Source: Luteibacter sp. dw_328 (lineage in GTDB: Bacteria; Pseudomonadota; Gammaproteobacteria; Xanthomonadales; Rhodanobacteraceae). From it: a DNA stretch of 64,000 nt. Below are positions 37-29,696 of this stretch, piece by piece. The notes under the pieces are model-generated. The model ran no database searches and was not told the origin of the DNA. It saw nothing but the letters and a program-made list of their open reading frames with translations. The DNA lies in assembly GCF_018449605.1 (NCBI RefSeq), contig NZ_JAAVUW010000001.1, positions 1 to 64,000 on the forward strand, read 5' to 3'. Position 1 is the stretch's first letter; each line of letters begins with the position of its first letter. Both the position numbers and the translations under genes were made by a program.

Positions 37-59
37 ATCGCCGATGAATCGGCTCCCAC
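37..59. repeat. REP palindrome, type A (GATTCAT core)
   Basis: The arm ATCGCCGATGAATCGGCTCC continues with CAC and is one half of a REP pair whose other half would lie before the window. The preceding bases 1-36 resemble the spacers of the pairs at 35563-35643 and 63026-63110 (GGGTGCT..C, then ..CCCGCTG), so a whole paired unit is repeated rather than the arm alone. Confidence 0.8.
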
Positions 60-64
60 AACGG

Positions 65-424
65 CTAGGGCTTTGTCGCCAGCGGGGTGGGGTAGGTGAG
101 CTTGGGACGGTAGGGCTGGACCGAGATGCCGAGGTTCGGGCCCATGCGGTGGCTGAGGCCGTTCGCGTTGTACAGGCCGAGGGTGTTCGAGGGGCGCCTG
201 GTGATGTCCGCGTCGCCGGGCATCGGTACCGGCGTCACAGCGGTCGCGACCATGTGGTTGAGGCAGGCGTAGGAGAGCGTCGCGTTCCCCTCCTCATGAT
301 CGACGCATCCCGGGGTCGCCGACGCATGCACGCCGGGCAGGGTCACGACGCCCTTCGTTTCCTGCGCAAACGCGCCAGACGTTGCTGCGGCGGTGAATAC
401 GAACACGAGTTGCCGAATACGCAT
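65..424 (-). CDS. Small secreted protein of unknown function
   Basis: This 119-residue protein begins with a clear Sec signal peptide (MRIRQLVFVFTAAATSGAFA, cleavage likely before QET). The mature part is about 99 residues and has only two cysteines, in the PGCVDHEE and SYACLNH segments, which could form one disulfide. I recognise no family. It is transcribed away from the signalling gene that starts near 612, so the two share the 425-611 intergenic region with its TTGTCAY repeats. It may therefore belong to the same regulon; this is inference from position only. Confidence 0.6.
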   Translation of the reverse strand: MRIRQLVFVFTAAATSGAFAQETKGVVTLPGVHASATPGCVDHEEGNATLSYACLNHMVATAVTPVPMPGDADITRRPSNTLGLYNANGLSHRMGPNLGISVQPYRPKLTYPTPLATKP

Positions 425-493
425 ACATCATTCCCTGAGTCGTCACTGCGCTGGATAACACGCGCAGCAAGCCCTGCGGAAGTGGCGCGGCTG

Positions 494-545
494 TTGTCAT
501 GGTGTTGTCACTAACTTTGTCACGAAAACAGCGCGGTTGTGTCAT
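494..545. promoter_or_regulatory. PhoB-box-like direct repeats upstream of the signalling operon
   Basis: TTGTCAT (494-500), TTGTCAC (505-511), TTGTCAC (517-523) and GTGTCAT (539-545) start 11, 12 and 22 bases apart, about one or two helical turns. PhoB boxes are tandem CTGTCAT-type 7-mers with 11-base periodicity, so the first pair fits well and the rest loosely. The site lies between two divergent genes. The 12-mer TTGTCACGAAAA at 517-528 recurs in inverse orientation upstream of the TpsB gene (2871-2882). Confidence 0.45.
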
Positions 546-611
546 TTGCCGCGCCTAGCCTTCCCACGAGACAAGTCCCCGTCCCGTACGCCCATGCGCG
601 AAGGAATGACC

Positions 612-1322
612 GTGACACGCTGCGTTTTCGCGCTGGTCGCGTGCACCATCCTGCTCGCATCGCCGCATCTCGCGGCGCAGGTGCGGACCCCGGCGGAGGC
701 ATCACAGGGGTCGGAAGAAACGCATGCGCCAACGCGCTTCGACATCGACGCACAGCCGCTTGCGACCGCTCTTCGCGGTTACAGCGAAGCGACGGGCATT
801 GCTGTCCTCTTCGACGATTCGCTCGTCGCGGAACGTTCGTCGCCCGGTATCCACGGCGTGGCCGACCCACGCGACGCGTTGCGTGTTTTGCTCGTGGGAA
901 CGGGCCTCAGCGCCCATTTCGCCTCGATGAACGCATTCACCGTCACAGCCGATCCAACGACAGCCGCCGAGGCGTCCCTGCCTCCTGAAACGGAGGTGCG
1001 CGACGCCACGCCTTCGCTTGACGAGCGTGGCGCCGCGGTGATCCAGGTCGGCATCGAAGCCGCGCTCTGCGCACACGCGACGACACGGCCAGGTAGTTTT
1101 CGCCTCGCCATGCAAGTGTGGATCGATGGGGCGGGTGCCATCACCGAGGTGTCCGCGCTGGCACCGTCGGACGATCCGCATCGTGACGCACGCGTGGTCG
1201 CTGCGCTGCGCGGTCTGCGTTTGCCTCCGTCGACATCCCGTTTCAGCCCTGTGACAGTTCTGCTAACGCCGTCGGCTCCTGGCGCCTATCGCTGCACCGG
1301 CTCGCGCGCAGGGGAGGGCTGA
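612..1322 (+). CDS. STN-domain cell-surface signalling protein (VreA-like), no beta-barrel
   Basis: The GTG at 612 is chosen because AAGGA lies 6 bases upstream and it gives a clean signal peptide (TRCVFALVACTILLASPHLAAQ); ATGs at 594 and 606 are in frame alternatives. Mature residues about 35-115 form an STN domain (FDIDAQPLATALRGYSEATG, then DALRVLLVGTGLSA), the signalling module of TonB-dependent transducers and secretins. No barrel follows. Residues about 145-225 instead resemble a TonB C-terminal domain (MQVWIDGAGAITEV, AALRGLRLPPS) and align by eye with the TonB-like protein at 6794-7474. P. aeruginosa VreA is likewise a short, barrel-less STN protein encoded before an ECF sigma and a FecR protein. 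It probably acts in the periplasm, relaying a signal to the anti-sigma factor. Confidence 0.75.
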   Translation: MTRCVFALVACTILLASPHLAAQVRTPAEASQGSEETHAPTRFDIDAQPLATALRGYSEATGIAVLFDDSLVAERSSPGIHGVADPRDALRVLLVGTGLSAHFASMNAFTVTADPTTAAEASLPPETEVRDATPSLDERGAAVIQVGIEAALCAHATTRPGSFRLAMQVWIDGAGAITEVSALAPSDDPHRDARVVAALRGLRLPPSTSRFSPVTVLLTPSAPGAYRCTGSRAGEG

Positions 1323-1323
1323 C

Positions 1324-1860
1324 GTGGATACCTCGATGCTGGGGCTGTTCCTCGCCAACTACGAAGACTTCCGTCGCCGGCTGCGCCGTCGCCTGCGCTC
1401 GGACGATCTCGTCGACGACGTACTGCAGGAGACCTACCTGCGGGTGGAACGGCTCGATCCCGAGGCCGAGCGCGCCACGCACCCCACCGGTTATCTGTTC
1501 CGCATGGCTTTGAACATGGCCGCGGACCACCACCGTTCGTCGGGCCGACTGCTCACCGGCGAAGAGGTCGACGACCTGATACAAGGCGTTGACGATCACC
1601 TCGACCCGCCCACCGTATTGTCTTCGCAGCAGGACATCGCGGCGCTGGGCCTGGCCCTGGATATGCTCACCCGTCGCCAGCGCGAGATCCTCATCGCGGC
1701 ACGTATCGACGAGTTGCCCCAGGTAGAAATCGCCGCGCGCTACGGCATCTCCGTGCGCATGGTCGGCAAGGAACTGAAGAAGGCACTTGAGACCTGTGCC
1801 GCAAAAGTGGGAAGAAAATCGGTACAGCGGTTCGGTCCCGGTGCCGGAGATGCGTCTTGA
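1324..1860 (+). CDS. ECF RNA polymerase sigma factor, FecI/VreI-like
   Basis: This 178-residue protein has sigma region 2 near residues 10-75 (SDDLVDDVLQETYLRV and a GYLFRMALNMAADHHR recognition segment) and region 4 near 115-165 (LTRRQREILIAARID, LPQVEIAARYGISVRMVGKE, a helix-turn-helix). It starts at GTG one base after the STN gene stops and overlaps the anti-sigma gene by four bases, so the three are translationally linked. ECF sigmas of this class direct transcription of surface-uptake or secretion genes once released by their FecR-type regulator. The likely targets are the downstream TpsB, ExbBD-TonB, TpsA and secretion genes; that is inference. Confidence 0.85.
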   Translation: MDTSMLGLFLANYEDFRRRLRRRLRSDDLVDDVLQETYLRVERLDPEAERATHPTGYLFRMALNMAADHHRSSGRLLTGEEVDDLIQGVDDHLDPPTVLSSQQDIAALGLALDMLTRRQREILIAARIDELPQVEIAARYGISVRMVGKELKKALETCAAKVGRKSVQRFGPGAGDAS

Positions 1861-2834
1861 CCGGTATGGACACGACTCACATCCACGAGAGCGAACGCGA
1901 GGCCCAGGCGTGGCTGGTGCATCTGACCTCGGGTAAGGCCACCCGCGAGGACGGCGAAGCCTTCCGTCGCTGGTGCCTGGCGAGCGAACAGCATGCGGAG
2001 GCCTTCGCACGGACGCGGCAGATGTGGCAGGACCTCGGTCCGGCCATCGCGCGGCGTCAGCAATCGATCCCAAGGGGCGGACGCCCGGTACCGAAGCACG
2101 CGATACGAATGAGTCGTCGCGCCTTCCTCGGCACCGCTATCACGGCCTCTGTCGCCGCGGTGGTCGTCGCCCGGTATGGATTCGACATGGGTGGCCAACG
2201 CGGCACCGGCGCCACCCTGCGCACGGCGATCGGCGAACAGCGGCACGTGGACGTGACGCAGGGCGTTGCCCTGGAAATGAACACCGCCACGGATATCGGC
2301 GTGCGTTCGTCGGGTAACGCCATCACCGGCGTCCGCCTGCGTTCGGGCGAGGCCGTGGTCCGTATCGACTCGTTGCACACCGCACCCTTCGTCGTTGAAC
2401 TGGAGGATGCGCGCGTCCTTTCGGGTCCGGGCGCCTCGTTCGCTGTGCGCTGCGTGGACGGCGTGTCCACGGTGACCTGCCTGGAAGGGCAGGCGGTGCT
2501 GGCGCGTGCCGCGACGAAGACCCTGGTCAAACCCTCGCAGCAGCTGGCCTTCGATGCCGACGGCCTTGGCGCTGCGGTTGCCGTCAATCCGGATACCGCG
2601 CTCGCATGGAGGCACCGCGTACTGATCTACGACAACCAACCCCTTGCCGACGTCGTCACCGACATCAATCGCTATCGCCCCGGCCGCATCGTCATTACCG
2701 ACCACGCGCTCGGCGAGCGCCGCGTGCATGCGCGTTTCACCCTGGACCAGATGGCCGACGTGGCCACGCTGATCGAAGACGCCTATGGCGCGCACGCCAC
2801 CCATCTTCCGGGTGGTTGGGTGTTGTTGAGCTGA
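1857..2834 (+). CDS. FecR-family anti-sigma factor/sigma regulator (VreR-like)
   Basis: The 325-residue protein has a cytoplasmic N-terminal DUF4880-like domain (residues about 10-60, EAQAWLVHLTSGKATREDGE, FRRWC), one transmembrane segment about 88-110 and a periplasmic FecR domain (RTAIGEQRHVDVTQGVALEM, then FAVRC, VTCLEGQAVL). The C-terminal 70 residues (NQPLADVVTDINRYRPGRIV) look STN-like. The SRRAFLG sequence before the membrane helix resembles a twin-arginine motif, which has been described for some FecR proteins. It should hold the ECF sigma inactive until the STN protein signals. TTG at 1857 is preceded by GGAGA; ATG at 1866 is the alternative start. Confidence 0.85.
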   Translation: MTGMDTTHIHESEREAQAWLVHLTSGKATREDGEAFRRWCLASEQHAEAFARTRQMWQDLGPAIARRQQSIPRGGRPVPKHAIRMSRRAFLGTAITASVAAVVVARYGFDMGGQRGTGATLRTAIGEQRHVDVTQGVALEMNTATDIGVRSSGNAITGVRLRSGEAVVRIDSLHTAPFVVELEDARVLSGPGASFAVRCVDGVSTVTCLEGQAVLARAATKTLVKPSQQLAFDADGLGAAVAVNPDTALAWRHRVLIYDNQPLADVVTDINRYRPGRIVITDHALGERRVHARFTLDQMADVATLIEDAYGAHATHLPGGWVLLS

Positions 2835-2870
2835 CTGTCGCACGGGGTCGGCACCGTCGGCCTCATGAAT

Positions 2871-2882
2871 TTTTCGTGACAA
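2871..2882 (-). promoter_or_regulatory. Inverse copy of TTGTCACGAAAA upstream of tpsB
   Basis: Read on the minus strand, these 12 bases equal positions 517-528 upstream of the signalling operon. The site lies 40 bases before the TpsB start, inside the only non-coding gap between the anti-sigma gene and the transport genes, where a sigma-dependent promoter for the second operon would be expected. Whether it is a regulator site or a promoter element cannot be told from the sequence. Confidence 0.3.
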
Positions 2883-2921
2883 CGGTTCAGTGCCACCACT
2901 GCCCACGCGTCCTTAGGGCAG

Positions 2922-4559
2922 ATGGAACATCAGGGGAAGCTCCGCGTGGCTACACGAGCAGTATGGGTGCGAGGCGCACACGCGCTGGCGCTGGCGATTT
3001 CGCTGTCGTTGACAGGTGCCGCCATGGCGCAGGACGCGCCGACCGCGTTCGACGTGAACGAATACGTCGTCGACGGCAACACGACACTGCAGGCGCTGGA
3101 TATCGAAACGGCGGTCTATCCGTTCCTCGGTCCCGGCAAATCGATGAACGACGTGAGCGCGGCGCGGGATGCACTGCAGAAGCTCTACCAGGCGCACGGC
3201 TACCAGTCCGTGGTGGTGGACCTGCCGCCGCAGCAGGTGAAGGGCGGCGTGGTGCGATTCCAGGTCACCGAGAACACCGTGGGGCGCGTGCGTGTGGAAG
3301 GCGCCACGTACCGTTCCCCCAAGGATATCCGCGATGCGGTGCCGGCCCTGCGCGAAGGCGATGTACCGAACTTCGCCGATGCCCAGCAGCAGCTCACCGA
3401 CGTGAACAAGCGCGGTGGTGCCCAAGTCGTGCCGGTGCTCGCGCCGGGCAAGCTGCCGCAGACGATGGACGTGACGCTCAAGGTCACGGACAGCTCGCCG
3501 CTGCATGCCAGCCTCGAGGTCAACAACGACCATAGCGTCAACACGCCCGAACTGCGCACCGTGGCCAGCGTGCGCGACGACAACCTGTTCCAGAAGGGAC
3601 AGTCCGCGTCGCTGACCTATATCGTCGCGCCCCAGGATCGCAACGCCGCGGAGGTCTGGGCGGGTTCGTATCTTATTCCGTTGAGCACCGACTGGAGCGT
3701 GCTGACCTCCGCTTACAAGTCCAACAGCAATGCCAACGCCGTCGGTGGTACCACGGTACTGGGCAAGGGTAACGCCTTCGGGTTCACCTTTGTGCGCACG
3801 CTCCCGACCCACGGTGAGTACTCGCAGTCGCTGTCCCTGGGCCTGACGCGCAAGCACTTCGATCAGAACATCAGTCTGGGTGGACAGACCTCGAAAGCAC
3901 CGATCACCTATATCCCGCTGGTCGCGAGCTACCAGGGCCAGTCCGTCGGCGAACGCTCGGCGAGCAGCATCGGTATCAGTGGCACGTTCGGCTTCCGGGC
4001 CGGTGGCAGCGACTCGGCCGAGTTCGACAACCAGCGCTACAAGGCGCGGCAGAACTTCTTCTACATGAAGTTCGATGGTGGCCACACGCTCAACTTCGAG
4101 GATGGCTTCAGCCTCGCGGGACGCCTCGGCTTGCAGTTGTCGACCTCGTCGCTGGTCTCCAGCGAACAGTACGCGGCCGGTGGCGACAGCACGGTGCGTG
4201 GCTACCTCGAAGCCGAAGAGACTGCCGACCATGGCGTGATCGGCTCGATCGAATTCCGTACACCGTCCATCGCCCAGCACATCGGTGGCTGGGTGAACGA
4301 CTGGCGCTTCCACGCCTTTGCCGACGCTGCGCACCTCGCGCTGATGAACGCCTTACCGCAGCTTGTCGATCCGGCCAATCCCGCCGCAGGCAGCACGCGC
4401 GTGACGAGCTACGACCTTTCCAGCGTCGGCGTCGGTACCCGTTTCCAGATCTTCAACATCGCTACCGGTGCGTTCGAGGTGGCCTATCCGTTCAACAACG
4501 GGCAGGCCACGCGTGCGCACGACACTCGCATCCATTTCTCACTCAAAGCGGATCTCTGA
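2922..4559 (+). CDS. TpsB outer-membrane transporter, ShlB/FhaC family (PdtB-like)
   Basis: The protein has 545 residues, the usual TpsB length. A signal peptide (ALALAISLSLTGAAMAQ) is followed by POTRA-type sequence at about 40-190 (FDVNEYVVDGNTTL, YQSVVVDLPPQQVKGGVVRF, VGRVRVEGATYRS). A 16-stranded-barrel region runs to the C-terminus and carries the Omp85-superfamily signature VRGYLEAEE near 425. TpsB pores recognise the N-terminal TPS domain of a partner exoprotein in the periplasm and export it. The only partner here is the 4020-residue TpsA 6 kb downstream, with the energy-transduction genes between, as I recall for P. aeruginosa pdtA/pdtB. Confidence 0.85.
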   Translation: MEHQGKLRVATRAVWVRGAHALALAISLSLTGAAMAQDAPTAFDVNEYVVDGNTTLQALDIETAVYPFLGPGKSMNDVSAARDALQKLYQAHGYQSVVVDLPPQQVKGGVVRFQVTENTVGRVRVEGATYRSPKDIRDAVPALREGDVPNFADAQQQLTDVNKRGGAQVVPVLAPGKLPQTMDVTLKVTDSSPLHASLEVNNDHSVNTPELRTVASVRDDNLFQKGQSASLTYIVAPQDRNAAEVWAGSYLIPLSTDWSVLTSAYKSNSNANAVGGTTVLGKGNAFGFTFVRTLPTHGEYSQSLSLGLTRKHFDQNISLGGQTSKAPITYIPLVASYQGQSVGERSASSIGISGTFGFRAGGSDSAEFDNQRYKARQNFFYMKFDGGHTLNFEDGFSLAGRLGLQLSTSSLVSSEQYAAGGDSTVRGYLEAEETADHGVIGSIEFRTPSIAQHIGGWVNDWRFHAFADAAHLALMNALPQLVDPANPAAGSTRVTSYDLSSVGVGTRFQIFNIATGAFEVAYPFNNGQATRAHDTRIHFSLKADL

Positions 4560-4595
4560 CCGGCAGGTCGGACCATAGACTCCAGGGGTATCACC

Positions 4596-6371
4596 GTGAC
4601 TCGAATCTTGTTACTGACCTGCTTGCTCATCCTCGGCTGGGTGCCTGCGGCGCACGCCGACACCTCGTGGTGGAACCAGGACTTCTCCTTCCGCAAGGCG
4701 ATCACCATCGACACGACGGCCAAGGGTGGTCATGTCAGCACGGCGGTCGGCCGTACGCCGCTACTGGTTCGCCTGCACTCGGGCAACTTCACCTTCGACG
4801 GTGTGTCCGAGTCGGGCGCGGATATCCGCTTCGTCGCCGCTGACGACAAGACGCCGCTGAACTTCCAGATCGAAAGCTTCGATCCGGTGCTGGGCGTGGC
4901 GCTGATCTGGGTGGACGTGCCGCAGGTGGCCGCGGACGCGCAGCAGCAGGTGTGGATGTACTACGGCAACACCAAGGCGCAGGGTGCCGAGAAGGCTGGT
5001 GCGGTATTCGACGCCGACTACGCCGCCGTCTATCACTTCGAAGAGCCCGCCGGCACGCCGCCGCACGATGCCACGGCCTACGGCAACAACGCCGTCGGTA
5101 ACGACATCGCGGGCGTCGACGGCATCATCGGCAAGGCCGCGCGCTTCGATGGCTCGAAGATCGTGACGCTGCCGGGCAGCGTGTCGATGAACGTCGCCGA
5201 GGGCGGCACCTTCACCATCAGCACCTGGATCAAGCTGGACGCCATCGCCGATGGTCGCGCGCTGGTCTACGCCCGCCGCCAGGGTGACCAGAAGCTCCTG
5301 ATCGGTCTCGACCATGGCGTGCCCTTCGTGCAGACGGGCGACGCCACCAGCGCCGCCGGTGAGCCGATCAAGGCCGGCGCCTGGACGCACCTGGCCGTCA
5401 CGGCCGCGGGCGACGACATCGAGCTGTATGTCGATGGCAAGCCGTACGCCAAGCTTGCCGCGAAGCTGCCTGCGATGACCAGCCAGGCGACGCTTGGTGG
5501 TGACGCCCCGGGCCAGACGGAAACCTTCGTACCGTTCACCGGCCAGATGGACGAGGTGCGCCTGTCGCGCATTGCCCGCCCGTCCACGCTGATCGCGGTG
5601 GACGCGCAGACCCAGGGAGCGGAATCCAAGCTGCTGAACTACGGCGCCGACGAGAAGCAGTCGGGCGTGGGCTTCGGGTACTTCGGCATCATCGTCAAGT
5701 CGGTCACCGCCGACGCCTGGTCGATCATCGGTATCCTGATGATCATGGCCGTGCTGTCGTGGGTGGTGATGTGGCAGCGTGCGTCGTACGTCAACCGCGT
5801 AACGAACGCCAACGAGGACTTCCTCGAGGCCTTCCGCCAGCAGGGTCGCAACATTCTCGCGCTGTCGCGCGATCCCACCGCTTCCCGCCTGGAAGACGCG
5901 TCGCTGTACCGCCTGTATAAGGTCGGCGCCGGCGAAGTGTGGAATCGCCGCGACGCGGACGGTCACGACCATATCGCGGCTGAATCCATCGAAGCGATCC
6001 GCGCCACCATGGATTCGGTGCTCGTGCGCGAGAACCAGAAGCTGTCGAAGTCGATGGTGCTGTTGACCATCGCCATCTCCGGCGGTCCCTTCCTCGGCCT
6101 GCTCGGCACCGTGGTCGGCGTCATGATCACCTTCGCGGCGATCGCCGCGGCGGGCGATGTGAACGTCAACGCCATCGCACCCGGTATCGCCGCTGCGCTG
6201 CTGGCGACCGTCGCCGGCCTGTTCGTCGCGATCCCCGCGCTGTTTGGCTACAACTACCTGTTGATCCGCAACAAGAACGTCACCGCGAACATGCAGGTGT
6301 TCGTCGACGAGTTCGTGACTCGCCTGGCGGAACAGCAGCGCGCCACCCACCCGTCGGCCGTCGCGGCCTGA
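4596..6371 (+). CDS. ExbB/TolQ-type proton-channel protein with DUF2341-LamG ectodomain
   Basis: This 591-residue protein is more than twice the usual ExbB length. It has a signal peptide (RILLLTCLLILGWVPAAHA), a DUF2341-like region about 25-135 (SWWNQDFSFRKAITIDT, QQVWMYYGNTKA), and a LamG/concanavalin-like jelly roll about 140-335 (YHFEEPAGTPPHDATAYGN, FTISTWIKLD, WTHLAVTAAGDDIELYVDG). One membrane helix near 375-395 leads into a MotA/TolQ/ExbB domain at about 400-585 (GGPFLGLLGTVVGVMITFAA, GIAAALLATVAGLFVAIPAL). With ExbD and TonB next to it, it should form a proton-motive-force motor whose periplasmic lectin-like domain could bind glycan or a secreted partner. GTG start at 4596. Confidence 0.85.
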   Translation: MTRILLLTCLLILGWVPAAHADTSWWNQDFSFRKAITIDTTAKGGHVSTAVGRTPLLVRLHSGNFTFDGVSESGADIRFVAADDKTPLNFQIESFDPVLGVALIWVDVPQVAADAQQQVWMYYGNTKAQGAEKAGAVFDADYAAVYHFEEPAGTPPHDATAYGNNAVGNDIAGVDGIIGKAARFDGSKIVTLPGSVSMNVAEGGTFTISTWIKLDAIADGRALVYARRQGDQKLLIGLDHGVPFVQTGDATSAAGEPIKAGAWTHLAVTAAGDDIELYVDGKPYAKLAAKLPAMTSQATLGGDAPGQTETFVPFTGQMDEVRLSRIARPSTLIAVDAQTQGAESKLLNYGADEKQSGVGFGYFGIIVKSVTADAWSIIGILMIMAVLSWVVMWQRASYVNRVTNANEDFLEAFRQQGRNILALSRDPTASRLEDASLYRLYKVGAGEVWNRRDADGHDHIAAESIEAIRATMDSVLVRENQKLSKSMVLLTIAISGGPFLGLLGTVVGVMITFAAIAAAGDVNVNAIAPGIAAALLATVAGLFVAIPALFGYNYLLIRNKNVTANMQVFVDEFVTRLAEQQRATHPSAVAA

Positions 6372-6381
6372 GGAACGGATC

Positions 6382-6789
6382 ATGCGCGCGCAAGACGAAG
6401 ACAAACCGTACGACGACATCAACATCACGCCCATGCTCGACCTGGCGTACGTGTTGCTCGTGATCTTCATCATCATGACCACCGCGTCGGTGCAGGGCAT
6501 CAAGGTGAACCTGCCCAAGGCCAGCGCCGCGGTAAGCATGGCCAAGCCGCAGACCAAGGCGATCACGATCTCGGAATCGGGACAGATCTTCCTCGACGCC
6601 TATCCGGTGACGATCGGCGAACTCGAAGAACGTCTTCGCTCGCTGAAGGCGATCAACCCGGATTTTCCGGTGGTGGTGAAGGGCGATTCCACGGTCCAGT
6701 ACCAGAAGGTGATGGACATCCTGGATCTGTTGCGTCGCGTGGACCTGCCGCAGGTCGGCCTGGTCACCGGCAAGTCGCCGAAGGGATGA
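6382..6789 (+). CDS. ExbD/TolR-family biopolymer transport protein
   Basis: The 135-residue protein has the ExbD layout: a short cytoplasmic N-terminus with INITPMLDLAYVLLVIFIIM, in which the aspartate of PMLDLAYVLLV is the conserved proton-carrying residue, one membrane helix, and a periplasmic domain of about 90 residues (VVVKGDSTVQYQKVMDILDL). It lies 10 bases after the ExbB-like gene and 4 before the TonB-like gene, completing an ExbB-ExbD-TonB set. Confidence 0.9.
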   Translation: MRAQDEDKPYDDINITPMLDLAYVLLVIFIIMTTASVQGIKVNLPKASAAVSMAKPQTKAITISESGQIFLDAYPVTIGELEERLRSLKAINPDFPVVVKGDSTVQYQKVMDILDLLRRVDLPQVGLVTGKSPKG

Positions 6790-6793
6790 TCGC

Positions 6794-7474
6794 GTGACCT
6801 TGTCTACTTCCCGCCGAAGAACACCTCGTCGCTGGCTCGGTCCGGCGGTCGGTGTCGCCGTGCTTGTACTGCTGGGGGTGCTGATCTGGCATTTCGCTGG
6901 TAGCAGCGTGGGCGTGCGTCGCGAGGCGCCACGCATCGCCACGATCACACCCCTCCCGCCACCGCCTCCGCCGCCGAAGGAAAAGCCGCCGGAGCCGAAG
7001 AAGGTCGAGGACGACATCAAGCCGATCGACAAGCCGCAGGACATCCCGCAGAAGCCGACCGACGCGCCGAAGCCGAGTAACGACGTGGCCAAGAACGTCA
7101 CGATCAACGGCGATGCGCAGGCTGGTAGCGACAACTTCAATATCGGCGCCGGCGATGGCGGCGGCATGGTCGGTTCCGGTGGCGGCAACGGCACGGGTAC
7201 CGGCAGCTACAGCCAGTACCTCGGCTATGCGATCCAGCAGGCCGTGCAGCGCGACGACCGGGTCAACCGCCTGGCCTTCGATGTGCGCGCCGACGTATGG
7301 CTGGATGCCGACGGCAAGCTCGCCCGCGCCGAACTGGTCGGCGGCAGCGGTAACGCAAAGACCGACGAAGCCTTGCTCGAGGCCTTGCGCGCGATGCCGC
7401 GCATCGACGTGGTGCCGCCCGCCTCGCTGCACTTCCCCGTGCGCGTGTCCATCCGCGGGAAGCGCCCCGTATGA
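6794..7474 (+). CDS. TonB-family energy transducer
   Basis: The 226-residue protein starts at GTG and has one N-terminal membrane helix (about 14-34, GPAVGVAVLVLLGVLIWHF). A Pro/Lys/Glu-rich spacer follows (PPPPPPPKEKPPEPKK) and then a Gly-rich linker (GGGMVGSGGGNGTGTG). The C-terminal TonB fold runs about 145-225 (FDVRADVWLDADGKLARAEL, LEALRAMPRIDVVPP). It would couple the ExbBD motor to an outer-membrane partner, but no TonB-dependent receptor barrel is encoded nearby, so the partner is unclear. Its C-terminal domain resembles that of the STN protein at 612-1322. Confidence 0.8.
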   Translation: MTLSTSRRRTPRRWLGPAVGVAVLVLLGVLIWHFAGSSVGVRREAPRIATITPLPPPPPPPKEKPPEPKKVEDDIKPIDKPQDIPQKPTDAPKPSNDVAKNVTINGDAQAGSDNFNIGAGDGGGMVGSGGGNGTGTGSYSQYLGYAIQQAVQRDDRVNRLAFDVRADVWLDADGKLARAELVGGSGNAKTDEALLEALRAMPRIDVVPPASLHFPVRVSIRGKRPV

Positions 7475-7530
7475 CGCCCGCCACGCCAACCCCCTTTGAA
7501 ACACACGCTTTGGAACCCCGGAGAGTTCGC

Positions 7531-9237: not shown

Positions 9238-9246
9238 GGAGGCGAT

Positions 9247-9870: not shown

Positions 9871-9972
9871 ACCAGGACCCGTCAGCCCGGCGGTGGGGCG
9901 CAAAGGAATGCATCGGACATCGCAACGGACAGGGACGTCTCTCTTTCATGAAGCAGGTCAGCGAGGCACGCG

Positions 9973-22508: not shown

Positions 22509-22522
22509 TGCCGTGCCTTTCG

Positions 22523-22578
22523 TTGTCATGTGATTTGTCATTAACGTGATAATGCCAACCGTGCGTTAAAGCTGTCAC
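22523..22578 (+). promoter_or_regulatory. PhoB-box-like repeats upstream of the DING gene
   Basis: TTGTCAT occurs at 22523-22529 and again at 22535-22541 (12 bases start to start), and CTGTCAC at 22572-22578. The spacing differs by one base from a canonical 11-base Pho box, so this is a candidate only. It gains weight from its position before a phosphate-binding protein gene and from the similar cluster at 494-545. Confidence 0.4.
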
Positions 22579-22682
22579 GGTCCTGGCATATGCAGGGACA
22601 TCCCCGCGTCACTGGTACGACAACTATCGGGCGAATACTCGGAACGCCTCCAAAAGGAGGTCTAACGACTAGGGGTAACACC

Positions 22683-24065
22683 ATGTTCAAGCGTAATGCT
22701 ATGGGGAACACCCGCGCCAAGCTTCTGGCTGGCGCCGTCCTGATGACGCTCGGTTTGACGGCTGCCGGCGCAGCGATGAGCACCAACGTCGGCGGCGGCG
22801 GTGCGACGCTGCCGGCCGGCGGGTATGTCGGTTGGAACTTCACCACCTCGGGCGCAACGTCCACGATCTTTTCGAGCAGCGTGGCGAGCAAGCCGGGCGC
22901 GACCGTCGACTCGACCTCGCTGATCGGCAACTGGGCCAGCACCAGCGGTAACAGCGTTTCGTACTGCCAGACCGGCAGCGGCGGCGGCAAGAAGATCTTC
23001 GATCATTCCGACGGTACGGCTACGTGGGGTGGCGCTGGTCAGGCTTGCTCGGCCACTGCTAGTGCGACCTCCGGCTTCGGCGCCGATACCTCCATCGTCG
23101 ATCCGCACTTCGTGGGCAGCGATGCGCCGATGTCCCAGGCTGAGTTCAGCTGGTTCGGCAATGGCACCAACCTCGGCAACAAGGCTACGAAGTACGGCCA
23201 GCCGTCGCAGTTCCCGGCCATCGTCGGTTCCGTCGCCATCGCGTTCAACAATCCGGACGCGTCGAGCCTCGACCTGAGCGATGCCGGCATCTGCCGCATC
23301 TTCTCCGGCCAGGTGACCGACTGGACCAACCTGGTGTCGTCCGATTTCCACACCCTGCCGTCGACCTTCCCGCTGCCGGCCCGCGCGCTCAAGGTCGCCT
23401 ATCGTGGCGATGGCAGCGGTACGACCTTCTCGCTGGCCAACCACCTGAGCACGGTGTGCGGCACGATCGCTGGCAAGTTCTTCCAGGCCGACCAGGCGTT
23501 CTCCACCGTTGTCGCCCAGTTTGGTCTGCCTGCGGGTTCGGTCGCCGGCACCGGTAACCCGGGCGTCGTGACTGCCATCAGCACCACACCGGGCGCGATC
23601 GGCTACGCGGAGTCGGCCAACCTGCAGCACACATCGGTTTCGGCCAACACCCACGTTGCCAACGTCAACGGCAAGAACCCGTACTCGGATCTCGCCTCGT
23701 CGTACACCTTCACCACGATCGTGGTCGACAACGTCATCAATGGCTGGAATACCACCGGAACGCTCGGTACGCCGAAGCTCCAGGCCCTGAGCCCGGCCGC
23801 GCCGGTCGGTGGTTGCATGCTGATGGTCAACCCGACGGCCTACGCCAACGGCATCGGCACGAGCTATCCGATCCTTGCCGTCTCCAACCTGATCTTCAAC
23901 GAGAAGGGCAACGGCACGGATGTCACGGCCGTGCGTGACCTGATGTCGTACACCTACAGCGCCACCCGCCGCGTTGGCGCCACGCTCATCGGCACCGGCA
24001 CCGGCTATGCGTTCGTCACCGCGCCGACCGCCAACGTCAAGATCAACACCTGCATCAACGCCTGA
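22683..24065 (+). CDS. DING/PstS-family phosphate-binding secreted protein (LapA-like)
   Basis: The 460-residue protein has a long signal peptide (residues about 1-31, AKLLAGAVLMTLGLTAAGAA). The mature start NVGGGGATLPAGGY parallels the DINGGGATLP N-terminus that names DING proteins. Family landmarks follow: FVGSDAPMSQAEF, FPAIVGSVAIAFNN, LSDAGICRIFSGQVTDW, VAYRGDGSGTTFSLANHL (phosphate-contacting Ser/Thr region) and TPGAIGYAESA. DING proteins bind phosphate, and some act as phosphatases; LapA of P. aeruginosa is described as a substrate of the Hxc T2SS. The next genes are T2SS pseudopilins, so this is the likely cargo. AGGGG lies before the ATG, and a stronger AGGAGG sits 22 bases upstream, too far to serve this start. 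Confidence 0.85.
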   Translation: MFKRNAMGNTRAKLLAGAVLMTLGLTAAGAAMSTNVGGGGATLPAGGYVGWNFTTSGATSTIFSSSVASKPGATVDSTSLIGNWASTSGNSVSYCQTGSGGGKKIFDHSDGTATWGGAGQACSATASATSGFGADTSIVDPHFVGSDAPMSQAEFSWFGNGTNLGNKATKYGQPSQFPAIVGSVAIAFNNPDASSLDLSDAGICRIFSGQVTDWTNLVSSDFHTLPSTFPLPARALKVAYRGDGSGTTFSLANHLSTVCGTIAGKFFQADQAFSTVVAQFGLPAGSVAGTGNPGVVTAISTTPGAIGYAESANLQHTSVSANTHVANVNGKNPYSDLASSYTFTTIVVDNVINGWNTTGTLGTPKLQALSPAAPVGGCMLMVNPTAYANGIGTSYPILAVSNLIFNEKGNGTDVTAVRDLMSYTYSATRRVGATLIGTGTGYAFVTAPTANVKINTCINA

Positions 24066-24108
24066 TCGAATTCTGATCGGATTTCACGGATGAGTCATGG
24101 ACGAGCGG

Positions 24109-24136
24109 AAAGGGCCCTTCGGGGCCCCTTCTTTTC
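24109..24136 (+). terminator. Rho-independent terminator after the DING gene
   Basis: The hairpin GGGCCC-TTCG-GGGCCC with flanking A and T runs (AAA before, CTTCTTTT after) begins 43 bases past the DING stop codon. It should end the DING transcript before the pseudopilin genes. Confidence 0.75.
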
Positions 24137-24196
24137 CTGCGTCATGCGAACGAAACCTAACGCGCCGTACTCTTGTGCAGGAAGGAGGGGAACACG

Positions 24197-24625
24197 ATGC
24201 GGCAACGTCGCGAACACGGATTCAGCCTGCTGGAAACGCTGGCAGCGATGTTCCTGCTCGCGTTGTGTTTTGGCGCCTTGATGAAAGCCGCGGGAGCGTC
24301 CATGGCACTCAACGCCCGGGCCGCCGATTACACGCAGGCCTCGCTATGGGCCACTGGCTTGCTCGACAGGCAATACGTGACCGAGTTTCCCTCCACCGGT
24401 GTGCATGAGGGGCGGTTCGATGAGACCTACCGATGGAAGATGACGGTGTCCGAACCACCATCGGAGGCAATCATGCGGATGAGTGCGCCGATGCGGCTTT
24501 ACCGCATCGAGCTGACCGTCGTTTGGAATGAGAAGGGCAAGGATGCGTCGGCGCGTTTCGAAACCCTCCGCGCCGTCTCCGAGGTTCTGCCCAGGGATGT
24601 CCCATCACCGGGGGGCGACTCGTGA
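24197..24625 (+). CDS. gspI: Type II secretion minor pseudopilin GspI
   Basis: The ATG at 24197 follows AGGAGG by about 10 bases; 142 residues. A short basic leader ending REHG precedes the prepilin-peptidase site and a hydrophobic helix with Glu at +5 (FSLLETLAAMFLLALCFGAL). Length, order before the J- and K-like genes and the C-terminal MRLYRIELTVVWNEK fit GspI, which seeds the pseudopilus tip with J and K in the inner membrane. Its stop overlaps the next start. Confidence 0.8.
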   Translation: MRQRREHGFSLLETLAAMFLLALCFGALMKAAGASMALNARAADYTQASLWATGLLDRQYVTEFPSTGVHEGRFDETYRWKMTVSEPPSEAIMRMSAPMRLYRIELTVVWNEKGKDASARFETLRAVSEVLPRDVPSPGGDS

Positions 24626-25284
24626 AGCGGTCGGCAGGTTTCAGTCTCATGGAAACGCTGGCGGCGCTCGCCTTGTTGGCGTTGCTGCTTCTCGGTGTGG
24701 TGGCATCGCTGGACACGATTGCACGATCGACGCACGCGAGCCTTGCCGCGACACAACGACTCGACGAGATGCGCGCTGCGCAGAACTACCTGCGAAGGGC
24801 GCTCTCGGGCGCGCTCGCTTATCCGTGGGCGCTCGGTCACGACAGGCAAGCGGTGGTGTTTCGTGGCAGTGCGCAGGCAGTCACCTTTGTATCGCCCGGA
24901 CCGGGTTATCTCGCTGCCGATGGACTCCAGCGACAGACGCTGTCGATTGTCGGCACACCGGGTGACCAGCGGCTTGAAGTGTCATTTGCACCGCTCGCCA
25001 CCCGTGCGGGTGCAGGCATTGTACCGGCATCGCCCGAAACGCTGCTCGAGCATGTCGCGTCGGGGCGTATCGTCTACAGCGGCATGGATGACCAGGGTCA
25101 CCCGGTAACCTGGAGGCCATCGTGGCCTTATGAAGATCGCATGCCGACGATGATCGGCCTGGAGCTTCGGTTGCGTGTTGGCCTGCGCTGGCCAACCTTC
25201 GTGGTGCCGCTGCGGATGGATCCGGAAGCGGTGAACACGCGCGAGGCCTTTACCCGGCTGGCCGCTACGCAGGCGAAATCGTGA
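24622..25284 (+). CDS. gspJ: Type II secretion minor pseudopilin GspJ
   Basis: The 220-residue protein starts at GTG overlapping the gspI stop. It has a leader ending SAG and the helix FSLMETLAALALLALLLLG with Glu at +5. The size is right for GspJ. The downstream domain (MRAAQNYLRRALSGALAYPW, VTFVSPGPGYLAADGLQRQT) has the arrangement of GspJ proteins. It should join GspI and GspK at the pseudopilus tip. Confidence 0.8.
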   Translation: MKRSAGFSLMETLAALALLALLLLGVVASLDTIARSTHASLAATQRLDEMRAAQNYLRRALSGALAYPWALGHDRQAVVFRGSAQAVTFVSPGPGYLAADGLQRQTLSIVGTPGDQRLEVSFAPLATRAGAGIVPASPETLLEHVASGRIVYSGMDDQGHPVTWRPSWPYEDRMPTMIGLELRLRVGLRWPTFVVPLRMDPEAVNTREAFTRLAATQAKS

Positions 25285-26144
25285 AAGCGCATGGGCGCGT
25301 CGGTGGGCAGCGGGGCATCGCACTTCTCGTGGTGCTGTGGGGATGCACGCTGGCGGCGATCACGCTTGGTGCGTTGGCGAGCGGCGCGAAGGTCGAAGGC
25401 ATCCAGGCGAGGGGCCAGTACCTGCAGACCAGGGGTTTCTACGCTGCGGAGGCCGGCATCGAGCAGGCCGTGTTCCGACTACGCGCCCAGGCGGCATCAC
25501 AGCGATGGGCTGTCGATGGCCGGACCTACCGCCTGCGCGAGGGCGACGCGACCGTATCGGTCACCGTGACCGACGAGGATGGCAAGCTCAACCTCAACAA
25601 GGCGTCACCCGCACAGCTGGGTGCGTTGCTCGAGGCGTTGGGCGTCGATGCTGGGCAGGTGCCGAGGCTGCGCGATGCCATCGTCCGATGGGGGAGTGGA
25701 GGTGAACGCTACTCCGATAGCCTGTTGGCGAAGGGTGGATTCACCAGTCTGGAAGAATTGCGTCGCGTGCCTGGTTTGCCCGGCGACGTGGTCGATCGAC
25801 TGGAACCGGCGGTGACGCTGTGGTCGGGCTCGGGACCGAACCTGGCTCACGCGCCCGCGGTTGTCGTCGTCGCGATGACAGGGGCGGGGCGGGCGGCTGC
25901 GGAAGCCTATGTGACCGACGTTCGCGCGATGGATCCCGAACACGGCGGCCTTCCTGCGGTGCCCGGCAACGTGGGAGCATCACAGTCCTTCGTACAGGGT
26001 AGTGGCACGGTCACCATCGTCTCTACCGCGACCTTGAGCGACGCACTCGCGGTAAGTATCCGGGCCACGGTGACCCTTCAGAACGCGCCCGGTGATCCGC
26101 GTGCTTATCGCGTGCTTCGATGGACGTCCGTTACATCGTCCTGA
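25281..26144 (+). CDS. gspK: Type II secretion tip pseudopilin GspK
   Basis: The 287-residue protein starts at GTG overlapping gspJ. The helix IALLVVLWGCTLAAITLGAL lacks Glu at +5, which is characteristic of GspK, the tip subunit. The segments DEDGKLNLNKASPAQLGALL and YSDSLLAKGGFTSLEELRRV are typical GspK helical-domain sequences. With I and J it forms the tip complex that contacts cargo and secretin. Confidence 0.85.
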   Translation: MKAHGRVGGQRGIALLVVLWGCTLAAITLGALASGAKVEGIQARGQYLQTRGFYAAEAGIEQAVFRLRAQAASQRWAVDGRTYRLREGDATVSVTVTDEDGKLNLNKASPAQLGALLEALGVDAGQVPRLRDAIVRWGSGGERYSDSLLAKGGFTSLEELRRVPGLPGDVVDRLEPAVTLWSGSGPNLAHAPAVVVVAMTGAGRAAAEAYVTDVRAMDPEHGGLPAVPGNVGASQSFVQGSGTVTIVSTATLSDALAVSIRATVTLQNAPGDPRAYRVLRWTSVTSS

Positions 26145-26261
26145 CGGTCCTGCGTCCTGGAACTGTCATGTCCACGGAGATATGGACATCGCTGAATGGT
26201 CACGAGTACGCGATAGCGTCGTAAGTGATCCACCACCGACATCCATCACCGAGGTGTTCTC

Positions 26262-27254
26262 ATGACGACTCAAAACGTGCCGTCCCATCGCCGCTGGCTC
26301 GCTTCCGCGGCGCGCTGCACGCTTCCGCTCCTGGCTGCCGGCGTGGCACTGCCGGCATCGGCTGCCCACAACAACCATGCGTATGTGGTGAACCAGATCG
26401 ACAACACGGTTTCCGTGATCGATATGGCTACCCATGCCGTGACCGCCACGATTCCGGTGGGCATCACACCCGTGGCTGCTGCGGTCAGTCCCGACGGCAA
26501 TCACGTCTATGTGGTCAACAGCCAGGCCAATACGGTTTCCGTGATCGATGCAGCGACCAATATCGTCGCCGCTAACGTGCTGGTTGGTTCGACGCCCGCC
26601 GCCGTCGCCGTCAGCGCCGACGGTACGAAGGTATATGTCGCGAATTCCGCCGCCGACACCGTTTCCGTGATCAACGCGGTCACCAACTCGGTGGTTGGCG
26701 AGATCGCGGTCGGCAGCGCGCCGCTCAGTATCGCGGTCGGTCCTGGTGGGGCTCGCGTTTACACGGGGAACATCGGCGATGGCACCGTGTCGGTGATCGA
26801 CGTGCGTGCGGGCAGGGTGACGGCCACGGTGGCAGTCAATGGCGTGCCGTTCGGTCTGGGCATGGGGCCCCTCGGAGCGCGCTTGTTCGTGCCCGACGTC
26901 GGCTCCAGCAATGTCTCCATCGTCGATACGCTGCAGAACAAGGTAGTTGGCAACCTCACCGCCGGTAACGGTACCTATGATGTGGCGACCAGCATCGTCG
27001 GTACGCCGGCGTATGTATCCAACTTCGGCGACAACACGGTGTCGGTGATCGAGACCTTCAGCAAGAAGACGCTCGCTACCGTGCCGGTGGGCAATTCCCC
27101 GGAGTCCGTGGCCGTCAGTCGCGACTCCGGTCGTGTCTATGTCACCAACTCGGGCACCAACAACGTTTCCGTGATCGACCCGCTTCGCAATACGGTGATC
27201 GCGACGGTGAACGTGGGTAGTGCGCCGACCGCCGTGGCCACCCAGCCGCAGTAA
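26262..27254 (+). CDS. Secreted YVTN-type beta-propeller protein within the T2SS cluster
   Basis: The 330-residue protein has a signal peptide (LPLLAAGVALPASAA) and then about seven blades of roughly 42 residues, each with a variant of YVVN, NTVSVID and VAVSPDG/PVGxxP. Such propellers resemble surface-layer or YncE-like proteins. It starts after GAGGTG and is bracketed by gspK and gspD, a place where I know no standard T2SS component. It could be a secreted cargo, a scaffold or an accessory factor. Confidence 0.75.
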   Translation: MTTQNVPSHRRWLASAARCTLPLLAAGVALPASAAHNNHAYVVNQIDNTVSVIDMATHAVTATIPVGITPVAAAVSPDGNHVYVVNSQANTVSVIDAATNIVAANVLVGSTPAAVAVSADGTKVYVANSAADTVSVINAVTNSVVGEIAVGSAPLSIAVGPGGARVYTGNIGDGTVSVIDVRAGRVTATVAVNGVPFGLGMGPLGARLFVPDVGSSNVSIVDTLQNKVVGNLTAGNGTYDVATSIVGTPAYVSNFGDNTVSVIETFSKKTLATVPVGNSPESVAVSRDSGRVYVTNSGTNNVSVIDPLRNTVIATVNVGSAPTAVATQPQ

Positions 27255-27281
27255 CGGCTCGGCCGACGTTCGTGGAAGCAG

Positions 27282-27311
27282 CGGCCATCCTCCGGGGATG
27301 GCCGTTTTCTT
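27282..27311 (+). terminator. Rho-independent terminator after the propeller gene
   Basis: CGGCCATCC-TCCG-GGATGGCCG is a perfect 9-base stem with a tetraloop, followed by TTTTCTTT. It ends the gspIJK-propeller transcript, so gspD probably has its own promoter in 27312-27413. Confidence 0.85.
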
Positions 27312-27413
27312 TGCGCGAGTTGCCGGTTTCCGTATGCCATGCAACAGTGCGTCACGGGGTCGCAACACGCACCCCCCAATCTCGCAGGCTTCGGTAACCA
27401 TGATGGTTTTTGC

Positions 27414-29696
27414 ATGACTCGTTTTCTTACGATCGGCGCCACGGCGCTGGTGGTGGCCCTGGCAGGTTGCTCCACGCTGCCGCAGCCCCGCGACGATGGC
27501 GCACTGCAGCGCGAGGCCATGGCCGGCACCGAACTCCCGGCGCCGAAGCCGCGTATCGCGCCGTCGACCAACCCATCGGTGCCGGCCAATACGGCGCCGC
27601 AGGTCACGACGGGTACCGGTGAGTTCATTAAACCGGTCGGGCTGGCCAAGCCGAAGCCTGTTGCCGAAGGCGCGGGCACGGTCACCTTCAATTTCGAGAA
27701 CCAGCCGGTCGAGTCGGTGGTGAAAGCCATCCTGGGCGATCTGCTGCACGAAAATTATTCGATCGTACCGGGTGTGCAGGGCAACGTTTCATTCTCGACC
27801 TCGCAGCCGGTCACGGCGGAACAGGCGCTGCCGATTCTCGAGACCTTGCTCTCCTGGACGGGTAACGCGCTCGTCCACAGCAATGGCCGTTACGTGGTCA
27901 TGCCTGCGAAGGACGCCGTCGCTGGCAACCTCGTGCCAAGCATCGGCGCCAACGCGCCGGCCGGTGGTCTTCAGGCACGGCTCTTTCCGTTGCACTTCAT
28001 CTCCGCGACGGAGATGCAGAAGCTGATCAAACCGTTCGCGCGTCCGGACGCGACGCTGCTCGCCGATCCCACACGTAACGTGCTGGTGATGGCCGGAACA
28101 CCGACCGAGCTCGACAACTACCAGCGCACCGTGGCCACCTTCGACGTGGACTGGCTGCGCGGCATGTCGGTCGGTGTGTTCGCCTTGCAGCGTGCCCAGG
28201 TGAAGGACCTCACGCCCAAGCTCGAAGGCATCTTCGGCGACAAGGGCAACACGCCGATGGCCGGCATGCTGCGTTTCATTCCGATCGAACGGACCAACTC
28301 GCTCGTCGTGCTGAGCCCGCAGCCTGTGTACCTCGAGGAAGTGCGCAGCTGGATCGATCGCATCGACCGGGGCGGCGGTAACGAGCCGCAGTTGTACGTA
28401 GTGGATGTGCGTAACGTGCAGGCCTCGGACATGGCCGATTACCTTTCGGACATCTATGGCAGCGGGTCGGGTGGCCGTTCGGGTGACAAGGGCGGCAAGG
28501 TCGGCCCCGGTCTCAGCTCCGGAACGCTCGGTGGCGGCGACAGCGATCTCGGCAACCGCGGTGGCTCCGGTATCGGTAGCACGACGGGTGCGTTCGGCAA
28601 CACGGGTTCGTCGTCGTCCGGATCGTCGAGCACCGGCGGCATGAGCACGGGTAGCGGTCTCGGTGGTAGCAGCTCGGGTCTGGGTGGCACGTCCACCTCG
28701 GGCCTGGGTTCCGGTTCGGGTTCTTCCGACGATAGCTCGGGTGATCCGGGCAATCGGCATTCCTCGACCACCACCGACGACGGCGTGCGCATCACCTCGG
28801 TCGATGCGAACAACCAGCTCATGGTCCGGTGCCGCCCCGCGCAGTGGACCGAGATCGAAGAGGCGATCAAACGCCTGGACGCCGTGCCGATGCAGGTGCA
28901 AATCGAGACGCGCATCCTCGAGGTGACCCTCTCGGGGGATCTCGAGTTCGGCGTGCAGTGGTACCTCGAAGGCCTGACCGGCACGACCAATGGGCAACCG
29001 ACCCAGCCGGGTAACAAGCATCAGTACGCGCTAGGCGGCGGCGGTGCGACGCTGGCGACAGGCGACAACTTCTTCTACTCCTTCGTCAACAACAACATCT
29101 CCGTCGCGCTGCACGCGATGGAGCAGAACGGAAACACGAAGGTGCTCTCCGCTCCCTCGCTGGTCGTGCTGAACAACCAGAAAGCGCACATCGAAGTGGG
29201 CGACCAGATTCCGATCACGCAGACTTTCGTCAACACCGGGGCGAACACGGACAACACGATCGGCCAGGTGGAATACAAGGACACCGGCGTGATCCTCAAC
29301 GTGCGCCCGCGCGTGAATCCGGGTGGCCTGGTCTACCTCAATGTGAGCCAGGTGGTGAGCAGCCCGGGCATCAAGGACACCACCACCGGCAACTTCCCGA
29401 TCCAGCAGCGCGAAGTGGCCACCCAGGTCGCGGTGCAGAGCGGGCAGACGGTGCTGCTCGGCGGCCTGATCAAGCAGAACGACGCCCTGACCGATACCGG
29501 TATCCCGGGGCTCAACCAGATTCCCGTACTCGGCCGTTTATTCGGCACGACCAGCCGGACACGGACCCGTACCGAGCTGATCGTCCTGATTACCCCACGG
29601 GTGATCACCAATGGAGACGAGGCCAAGCAGGTCACCGACGAGTACCAGCGCAAGTTCGAGTCGCTCCGGCCGTTCACCCAGCCCGCCAGACCTTGA
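27414..29696 (+). CDS. gspD: Lipoprotein type II secretion secretin GspD (liposecretin, HxcQ-like)
   Basis: The ATG at 27414 gives a lipoprotein signal with lipobox LAGC (cysteine near residue 19); the 25 upstream in-frame residues lack signal character. The 760-residue protein has an N0 domain about 85-165 (VTFNFENQPVESVVKAILGD), N1-N3 domains (LFPLHFISATEMQKLIKPFA, VGVFALQRAQVKDLTPKLEG), and a Gly/Ser-rich insert of about 95 residues within N3 (residues about 350-445). The C-terminal secretin domain is intact (QIPITQTFVNTGANTDN, VAVQSGQTVLLGGLIKQND, TRTELIVLITPRVI). It forms the outer-membrane exit channel. An acylated N-terminus lets liposecretins such as HxcQ reach the outer membrane without a pilotin. 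Confidence 0.9.
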   Translation: MTRFLTIGATALVVALAGCSTLPQPRDDGALQREAMAGTELPAPKPRIAPSTNPSVPANTAPQVTTGTGEFIKPVGLAKPKPVAEGAGTVTFNFENQPVESVVKAILGDLLHENYSIVPGVQGNVSFSTSQPVTAEQALPILETLLSWTGNALVHSNGRYVVMPAKDAVAGNLVPSIGANAPAGGLQARLFPLHFISATEMQKLIKPFARPDATLLADPTRNVLVMAGTPTELDNYQRTVATFDVDWLRGMSVGVFALQRAQVKDLTPKLEGIFGDKGNTPMAGMLRFIPIERTNSLVVLSPQPVYLEEVRSWIDRIDRGGGNEPQLYVVDVRNVQASDMADYLSDIYGSGSGGRSGDKGGKVGPGLSSGTLGGGDSDLGNRGGSGIGSTTGAFGNTGSSSSGSSSTGGMSTGSGLGGSSSGLGGTSTSGLGSGSGSSDDSSGDPGNRHSSTTTDDGVRITSVDANNQLMVRCRPAQWTEIEEAIKRLDAVPMQVQIETRILEVTLSGDLEFGVQWYLEGLTGTTNGQPTQPGNKHQYALGGGGATLATGDNFFYSFVNNNISVALHAMEQNGNTKVLSAPSLVVLNNQKAHIEVGDQIPITQTFVNTGANTDNTIGQVEYKDTGVILNVRPRVNPGGLVYLNVSQVVSSPGIKDTTTGNFPIQQREVATQVAVQSGQTVLLGGLIKQNDALTDTGIPGLNQIPVLGRLFGTTSRTRTRTELIVLITPRVITNGDEAKQVTDEYQRKFESLRPFTQPARP

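Follow-up and report, generated by a model that had tools for sequence, protein, structure and literature searches.

What are three minor pseudopilins of a type II secretion system (T2SS) doing behind a giant TpsA protein and a DING-like phosphate-binding protein, in a locus that encodes no secretion engine? The question is raised by the first 64,000 nt of contig NZ_JAAVUW010000001.1 (C1:1-64000, here called the window) in the 5.05-Mb genome of Luteibacter sp. dw_328 (G000 in the comparisons). A first-pass annotation had described positions 65..29,696 as a rearranged locus resembling the Vre/Pdt/Hxc region of Pseudomonas aeruginosa, with a signalling trio (an STN-domain protein, an extracytoplasmic function (ECF) sigma factor and a FecR-type regulator), the two-partner secretion (TPS) proteins TpsB and TpsA, ExbBD-TonB, a porin, a DING protein, pseudopilins I-J-K and a liposecretin. 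All of these component types are present there as intact frames, nearly all on the plus strand (Table 1). We consider it probable, with some reserve, that the locus is a phosphate-linked PUMA3/Pdt-type module carrying an exchangeable cargo-plus-tip cassette that works on the housekeeping T2SS. This cassette (TpsA-DING-I-J-K), which has no engine and is exchangeable between species, is the main novelty and is not visible from one window.

Accessory pseudopilins and the secretion engine

The dw_328 genome has one GspG, with a T2SS-type GspF and GspE beside it in a single Xps-type cluster on contig C20. A second GspF-type protein, on C11, adjoins a PilB-sized ATPase and probably belongs to a pilus. 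The complete engine (E, F, G, H, C, L and M) that an Hxc-type T2SS would have for itself was not found in this genome. A second T2SS hidden in an assembly gap was considered and rejected, because the ATPase on C18 is TfpB and the two genes near the secretin on C15 encode CoA-transferase subunits; it is also contradicted by five single-contig relatives with the cassette (G047, G112, G021, G310 and G346), which have one GspG each.

The same economy was seen among relatives. TpsB was detected at E<=1e-30 in 23 of 117 genomes of the family (dw_328 included), and all 22 loci besides its own were compared as fetched stretches around the locus. I-J-K follow DING in 14 of the 23 family loci and in four of five further congeners, in some cases with a beta-propeller gene or a second DING gene between. 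These 18 genomes have exactly one GspG each, outside the locus, and the 19th (G064) has two. Counted over 24 genomes, GspG is single in 22, double in G064 and not found in G062; over 16 further genomes it is single in 14 and double in G137 and G371. The loci of G062 and G145 stop at contig ends and stand outside any judgement on I-J-K, and L111 (Luteibacter yeojuensis), in which TpsA-DING-I-J-K is present, was left out of the GspG count.

A working tip is expected to have Glu at mature position 5 in I and J and to lack it in K, which is the pattern of the three window proteins (Table 1). The accessory tips are under purifying selection: the ratio of nonsynonymous to synonymous substitution rates (dN/dS) is 0.03-0.24 for cassette I/J/K (seven same-type pairs) and 0.09-0.26 for housekeeping I/J/K (five pairs), with dS high in several. 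For DING it is 0.16-0.63, again with high dS in several pairs.

The cassette genome with two GspG copies is informative about the pairing of tips and engine. In G064 the DING gene is followed by E-F-G-H-I-J-K-L-M, as far as the contig end, and another contig carries a second T2SS copy. Identity between the two copies is very high for E (96.9%), F (99.0%), G (99.3%), H (100%) and M (98.5%, over 66 aa) and low for I (52.9%), J (44.1%), K (48.4%) and L (49.0%). The DING-linked tips group with type B cassettes (one of two types, see below) in the I-J-K tree; thus cassette-type tips are paired with an engine nearly identical to the housekeeping one.

Exchange of TpsA, DING and pseudopilins

A block of about 17 kb with TpsA, DING and I-J-K is exchanged whole. 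At the DNA level the window is 90% identical to its sister G089 over 37-10449 and 88% identical from 27348 onwards, with only shorter pieces of 72-79% in between, and G101 and G076 show the same drop and return. Between G000 and G089, proteins from STN to p158 are 84-99% identical, while TpsA is 49%, DING 41% and I/J/K 34-39% identical; between G101 and G076 the corresponding values are 77-99% for the signalling/TPS/TonB genes (the chassis) vs 49, 40 and 30-37%. The cross pairs match within the block: TpsA, DING and I/J/K are 75, 80 and 66-78% identical between G000 and G101, and 76, 72 and 65-76% between G089 and G076. Trees of TpsA, DING and I-J-K agree in dividing the genomes sampled into two types, A and B.

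Distances were compared in genomes that have all of the genes (11 congeners; 19 genomes), those without I-J-K being left out. In the 11 congeners (55 pairs), TpsA, DING, I, J and K distances intercorrelate at 0.94-0.98 (Mantel p 1e-4 among the I-J-K mean, DING and TpsA), and the correlations of block distances are -0.11 to 0.22 with single chassis genes and 0.04 with the chassis mean (p about 0.36-0.38). The chassis-gene tree of these congeners requires at least four changes between types A and B, the labels being set by a distance cut-off of our choice with G346 as a distant B member. Among 19 genomes, partial correlations given the chassis are 0.92 for IJK-DING, 0.94 for IJK-TpsA and 0.92 for DING-TpsA.

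Such a pattern could also arise if diversifying selection acted on TpsA alone, a giant surface protein and a possible target of phages or immunity, with DING and I-J-K hitchhiking and the tips adding at most minor capacity to the housekeeping T2SS. TpsA of types A and B diverges along its whole length, least at both ends, the block is swapped whole with its ends within conserved flanking genes, and TpsA-DING linkage without tips is common, all as hitchhiking would have it. However, hitchhiking alone leaves the joint persistence of I, J and K in 19 genomes without explanation, and purifying selection on them as a second set beside the housekeeping set speaks against it, as does G064 with its near-identical engine parts and distinct tips. 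We therefore regard it as rather unlikely.

The direction taken by the first-pass annotation, namely a degraded or rearranged Hxc system that has lost its engine and whose pseudopilins are relics, is very improbable. A PAO1-like layout with its own GspG does exist in the same order, in G137 of a second family (f2), which has STN-ECF-FecR, T2SS genes, two DING genes, TpsA, reversed pseudopilins and TpsB-ExbB-ExbD-TonB-porin; and haemagglutinin, DING and Hxc genes are linked in Pseudomonas. Outside the order, the TPS genes of G457 have T2SS genes and a DING-like gene as neighbours, and that genome encodes one GspG. However, the accessory I/J/K are intact and constrained, and their profiles match I, J and K from 20 housekeeping clusters with E values between 3e-36 and 4e-97 and the Hxc-like I and J of G137 at only 2e-8 and 2e-6, with no GspK match. 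Because the tips match Xps far better than these Hxc-like tips (a comparison of profiles, not a tree), the cassette is unlike an Hxc remnant. The annotated liposecretin is indeed a GspD with a lipobox, but it is an extra copy, and 15 of 19 housekeeping secretins fit a loose lipobox pattern, the other four reading MAGC or LCGC there; the lipobox was therefore rejected as an Hxc marker. With Xps-like pseudopilins, no second engine found in the genome and a lipobox that is not Hxc-specific here, the Hxc part of the annotation is not supported.

It is scarcely credible that the tips form a separate structure, for instance a short pseudopilus or a fibre resembling a type IV pilus, powered by a different ATPase like the TfpB type encoded on C18, given that they match the GspI/XpsI, GspJ and GspK families, that no GspG-type major pseudopilin lies within the block, and that in G064 tips of this type are part of a T2SS cluster.

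Chassis, control sites and island

All 22 other family loci keep the core gene order, with few exceptions: the fetched stretch of G028 showed no STN, G066 and G092 have the signalling trio in inverted orientation, and FecR and TpsB are several kb apart in G002 and G028. The nearest solved structures of the window STN protein are signalling domains of siderophore receptors, and its profile cross-matches TonB proteins, which indicates a TonB-like C-terminus. The PUMA3 literature describes the VreA-type receptor as an STN domain with a TonB/TolA-like C-terminus and no beta-barrel (PMC2729926); the window protein, of 238 aa, has this composition, and ECF sigma and FecR-type genes adjoin it. Likewise, PA0692-PA0698 are given as pdtB, exbB2, exbD2, tonB4, a putative porin, a structural homologue of channel-forming colicins and a YbjN-family protein (PMC7035377), and TpsB-ExbB-ExbD-TonB-Porin_5-p207 of the window repeats the order of PA0692-PA0697. 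Likeness to PAO1 was judged from published gene descriptions and from G137, not from PAO1 sequences; of 533 relatives the best 80 were retained, and there was no Pseudomonas among those 80. The Vre/Pdt-type identification thus stood, with the VreA-like protein, ECF, FecR, TpsA/TpsB, ExbBD-TonB and the porin and p207 at the PA0696/PA0697 positions occurring together family-wide. "Rearranged" applies to TpsA and the T2SS genes, which are placed differently, but not to TpsB-p207.

Part of this chassis has a wider distribution. In the class-wide sample of 369 genomes, used for the porin and DING searches, the porin was detected at E<=1e-40 in 24 genomes, 22 of them outside the order. Eleven of these 22 loci were fetched; all 11 keep ExbB-ExbD-TonB-porin-p207 and have TpsA within the stretch, so the module is widespread. 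Eight of the fetched stretches also contain TpsB, which in G441 and G562 immediately precedes ExbB; G598 and G662 have TpsA/TpsB in reverse. Nor is the signalling part a novelty, because PUMA3 clusters of other arrangement were reported from other bacteria in 2009 (PMC2729926).

Pho-box-like sites were taken as matches with <=2 mismatches to YTGTCAYN4YTGTCAY, which we presume to be the Pho-box consensus, within 300 bp upstream of starts estimated from alignments. Such a site precedes STN in 19 of 27 genomes (at -105 to -119 in 15) vs 1.9% in shuffled sequences. DING promoters have one in 7 of 27 genomes, five of the seven being type A, and the counts elsewhere are 4/28 for TpsA, 2/28 for TpsB and 1/7 for the beta-propeller; none was found within these limits for Porin_5 (0/28), GspI (0/19) or GspD (0/11). 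The recurrence of these sites makes PhoB control of the vreA-type promoter a plausible prediction.

Table 1. Features of the locus, in window positions.
Feature	Position	Strand	Evidence or remark
hyp65r, small open reading frame, 119 aa	65..424	-	homologues in relatives; no Pfam match
Pho-box-like site TTGTCATGGTGTTGTCAC	494..511	+	0 mismatches to YTGTCAYN4YTGTCAY
VreA-like protein, 238 aa: STN and TonB-like C-terminal domain, no barrel	606..1322	+	PF07660
ECF sigma factor, VreI-like	1324..1860	+	domain/family matches
FecR-type anti-sigma factor, VreR-like	1857..2834	+	domain/family matches
TpsB transporter	2922..4559	+	POTRA_2 and ShlB
ExbB with N-terminal DUF2341 and LamG_3 (probably periplasmic)	4596..6371	+	
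ExbD	6382..6789	+	domain match
TonB	6794..7474	+	domain/family matches
Porin_5, putative porin, PA0696 position	7471..9237	+	E 3e-181
p207, 207 aa, coiled-coil-like, apparent signal peptide, PA0697 position	9247..9870	+	
p158, 158 aa	9973..10449	+	no YbjN (PA0698-type) match
Exchangeable block	10450..27347	n/a	DNA identity to sister G089 90% up to 10449, resuming at 27348
TpsA, 4,020 aa	10446..22508	+	TPS domain and C-terminal DUF3739
Pho-box-like site CTGTCACGGTCCTGGCAT, upstream of DING gene	22572..22589	+	1 mismatch
DING-like phosphate-binding protein	22683..24065	+	GGGATLP kept; not canonical DINGGG
Accessory minor pseudopilin GspI	24197..24625	+	prepilin motif, Glu at position 5
Accessory minor pseudopilin GspJ	24622..25284	+	Glu at position 5
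Accessory minor pseudopilin GspK	25281..26144	+	no Glu at position 5
YncE-like beta-propeller, apparent signal peptide, optional cassette member	26262..27254	+	
Extra lipobox-bearing GspD	27339..29696	+	copy of secretin upstream of STN in congeners
PAS-GGDEF-EAL protein	29781..31457	+	right flank of island in congeners

The best PDB match of the DING-like protein is 4m1v, named phosphate-binding protein, with the aligned start DINGGGATLP, and the top five include two entries named DING (2q9t and 3w9v). The window protein has the GGGATLP start, and its N-terminus reads STNVGGGGATLP, not the canonical DINGGG. The motif GGGATLP occurs in 22 of 25 DING frames and is invariant across 21 aligned ones (of the four not aligned, three are those that lack the exact motif). 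The class-wide search gave DING matches in 26 of 369 genomes at E<=1e-20, dw_328 included; matches besides the window's are mostly partial and were taken for PstS-like proteins. Two DING genes per locus were seen in G028, G066, G115, G346, G351 and G137, the second one of G346 following GspK. As for TpsA, swapping of its C-terminus in the manner of contact-dependent inhibition systems was rejected, since divergence spans the whole protein.

Small genes vary in position. The gene hyp65r adjoins STN in congeners and lies between p207 and TpsA in most other genera; in 14 of 15 loci of other genera this goes together with p158 after TpsA. The beta-propeller gene lies between DING and GspI in G010 and G344, has two copies in G066 and, in G115, a place between two DING genes. 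Several GGDEF/EAL genes lie beyond the island, at 29781-31457, 36843-37916, 43308-44855 and 44845-47976.

Secretin genes flank the island. Congeners have a constant secretin upstream of STN, whose dw_328 copy is at C15:76-2313, and C15 appears to abut the window start. Across the junction of C15 (1-75) and the window (1-64), the gap between this secretin and hyp65r is about 140 bp; by eye the window start looks like a repetitive extragenic palindromic repeat, and the assembly may break there. The upstream secretins of the genus sit on short branches, as the sister group of operon secretins from other genera; the operon GspD of the genus (C20 and congeners) is strongly diverged and the copy beside the island is family-typical, as if the roles had been switched. 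A further copy at the right end was seen among congeners only in G000, G089, G010, G303 and G310, and the downstream secretin was accordingly rejected as a core part. The secretin tree, built without G303 and G310, suggests two separate duplications. The flanking lipobox GspDs (27339-29696 and C15:76-2313) are direct repeats encoding proteins 82-83% identical, and such a pair is also present in G089, G010, G303 and G310; the island could be lost by recombination across the repeats. In G033 (C1 1843092-1847220) the secretin is directly followed by the EAL gene, and the whole island of about 27 kb is therefore absent at that site.

Proposed working and known systems

On the reading that we favour, PhoB would induce the VreA/I/R-like trio, whose sigma factor would in turn activate the TPS/TonB genes. 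TpsB would export the giant TpsA to the cell surface, where the dedicated ExbB-ExbD-TonB, porin and p207 would serve the TpsA surface structure. The DING-like phosphate binder, as putative cargo, would reach the periplasm and leave by type II secretion, a route that has experimental support in Pseudomonas. The cassette GspI-J-K tip would replace the housekeeping tip on the single Xps-type engine and aim it at this cargo; and TpsA, cargo and tip, inherited and exchanged together, move between species as a single block, of type A or B, in a conserved chassis. What the comparison shows is the anatomy, the lone engine, purifying selection on the tips, exchange of the block and recurrence of Pho-box-like sites; PhoB control, engine use by the accessory tips and the role of DING as cargo are inferred.

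Several observations weigh against this reading. I-J-K were not found in the fetched stretches of six DING loci of the family (G011, G020, G038, G066, G092 and G115), of the congener G303, of six of seven fetched TpsA-DING loci of f2 (the seventh, G145, stops at a contig end) or of Lysobacter L112; DING export therefore does not always rely on a special tip. In G013 TpsA is present, with neither DING nor I-J-K in the fetched stretch. The I-J-K tree needs two changes for the cassettes, which may mean that the tips were captured on two occasions, and the program cautions that long branches come together in it. Similarity to Hxc tips was judged by cassette profiles against the G137 proteins, and the trees include no true Hxc tips. 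The control partial correlation IJK-FecR is nonzero (0.22, p 0.003, 19 genomes). Linkage is no proof of interaction: adjacency alone can produce it, as the A and B alleles may have diverged too far for recombination within the block. The null for the Pho-box motif consisted of mononucleotide shuffles only. The signalling step is uncertain because VreA is reported to be dispensable for VreI activation in P. aeruginosa (PMC7035377).

The cargo-plus-tip reading, if true, would account for the survival of a phosphate-linked secreted protein next to only part of a secretion system, and the comparison describes an exchangeable surface locus in Rhodanobacteraceae. To our knowledge, how a T2SS chooses its substrates is an open question, with the pseudopilus tip and the secretin among the suspects. 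Close relatives with nearly the same chassis and different cargo/tip pairs, together with G064, are natural swap experiments for tip-encoded specificity. It is nearly as likely as not, and we put it forward tentatively, that mobile cargo-plus-tip cassettes, each bringing a substrate along with its matching minor pseudopilins to the shared housekeeping machine, retarget a single T2SS engine in bacteria, which would make substrate specificity exchangeable in nature. The PUMA3/Pdt-type module is known in kind; the exchangeable, engine-less TpsA-DING-I-J-K cassette is new. We call it unreported because titles and abstract openings of mostly open-access literature on orphan or accessory minor pseudopilins, on the Luteibacter T2SS and on DING with T2SS and Xanthomonas mentioned no such cassette.

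Compared with PUMA3 of P. aeruginosa (VreA/VreI/VreR), as set out in the published descriptions by which likeness was judged, the window has the same barrel-less STN and TonB-like VreA, ECF and FecR, Pho-box-like sites and linked TPS and ExbBD (PMC2729926, PMC4971064, PMC7035377), but no Hxc genes separate its trio from its TPS genes. With the Pdt TPS system (exbB2-exbD2-tonB4, PA0696-PA0698) it shares the order TpsB-ExbB-ExbD-TonB-porin-p207, whereas its TpsA is downstream of p158, and p158 has no YbjN match. As in the Hxc T2SS with LapA/LapB or the DING protein Psp, a DING-type protein lies between a TpsA-type gene and T2SS genes; in contrast to Hxc, the window has only I-J-K and a secretin copy, without E, F, G, H, L, M or C, and its tips are Xps-like. 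In P. aeruginosa, XphA/XqhA are an alternative GspC/GspD pair that probably operates with the main T2SS. The window would likewise supply alternative parts for the main T2SS, but here the extra parts are the tip, and they are linked to a putative cargo.

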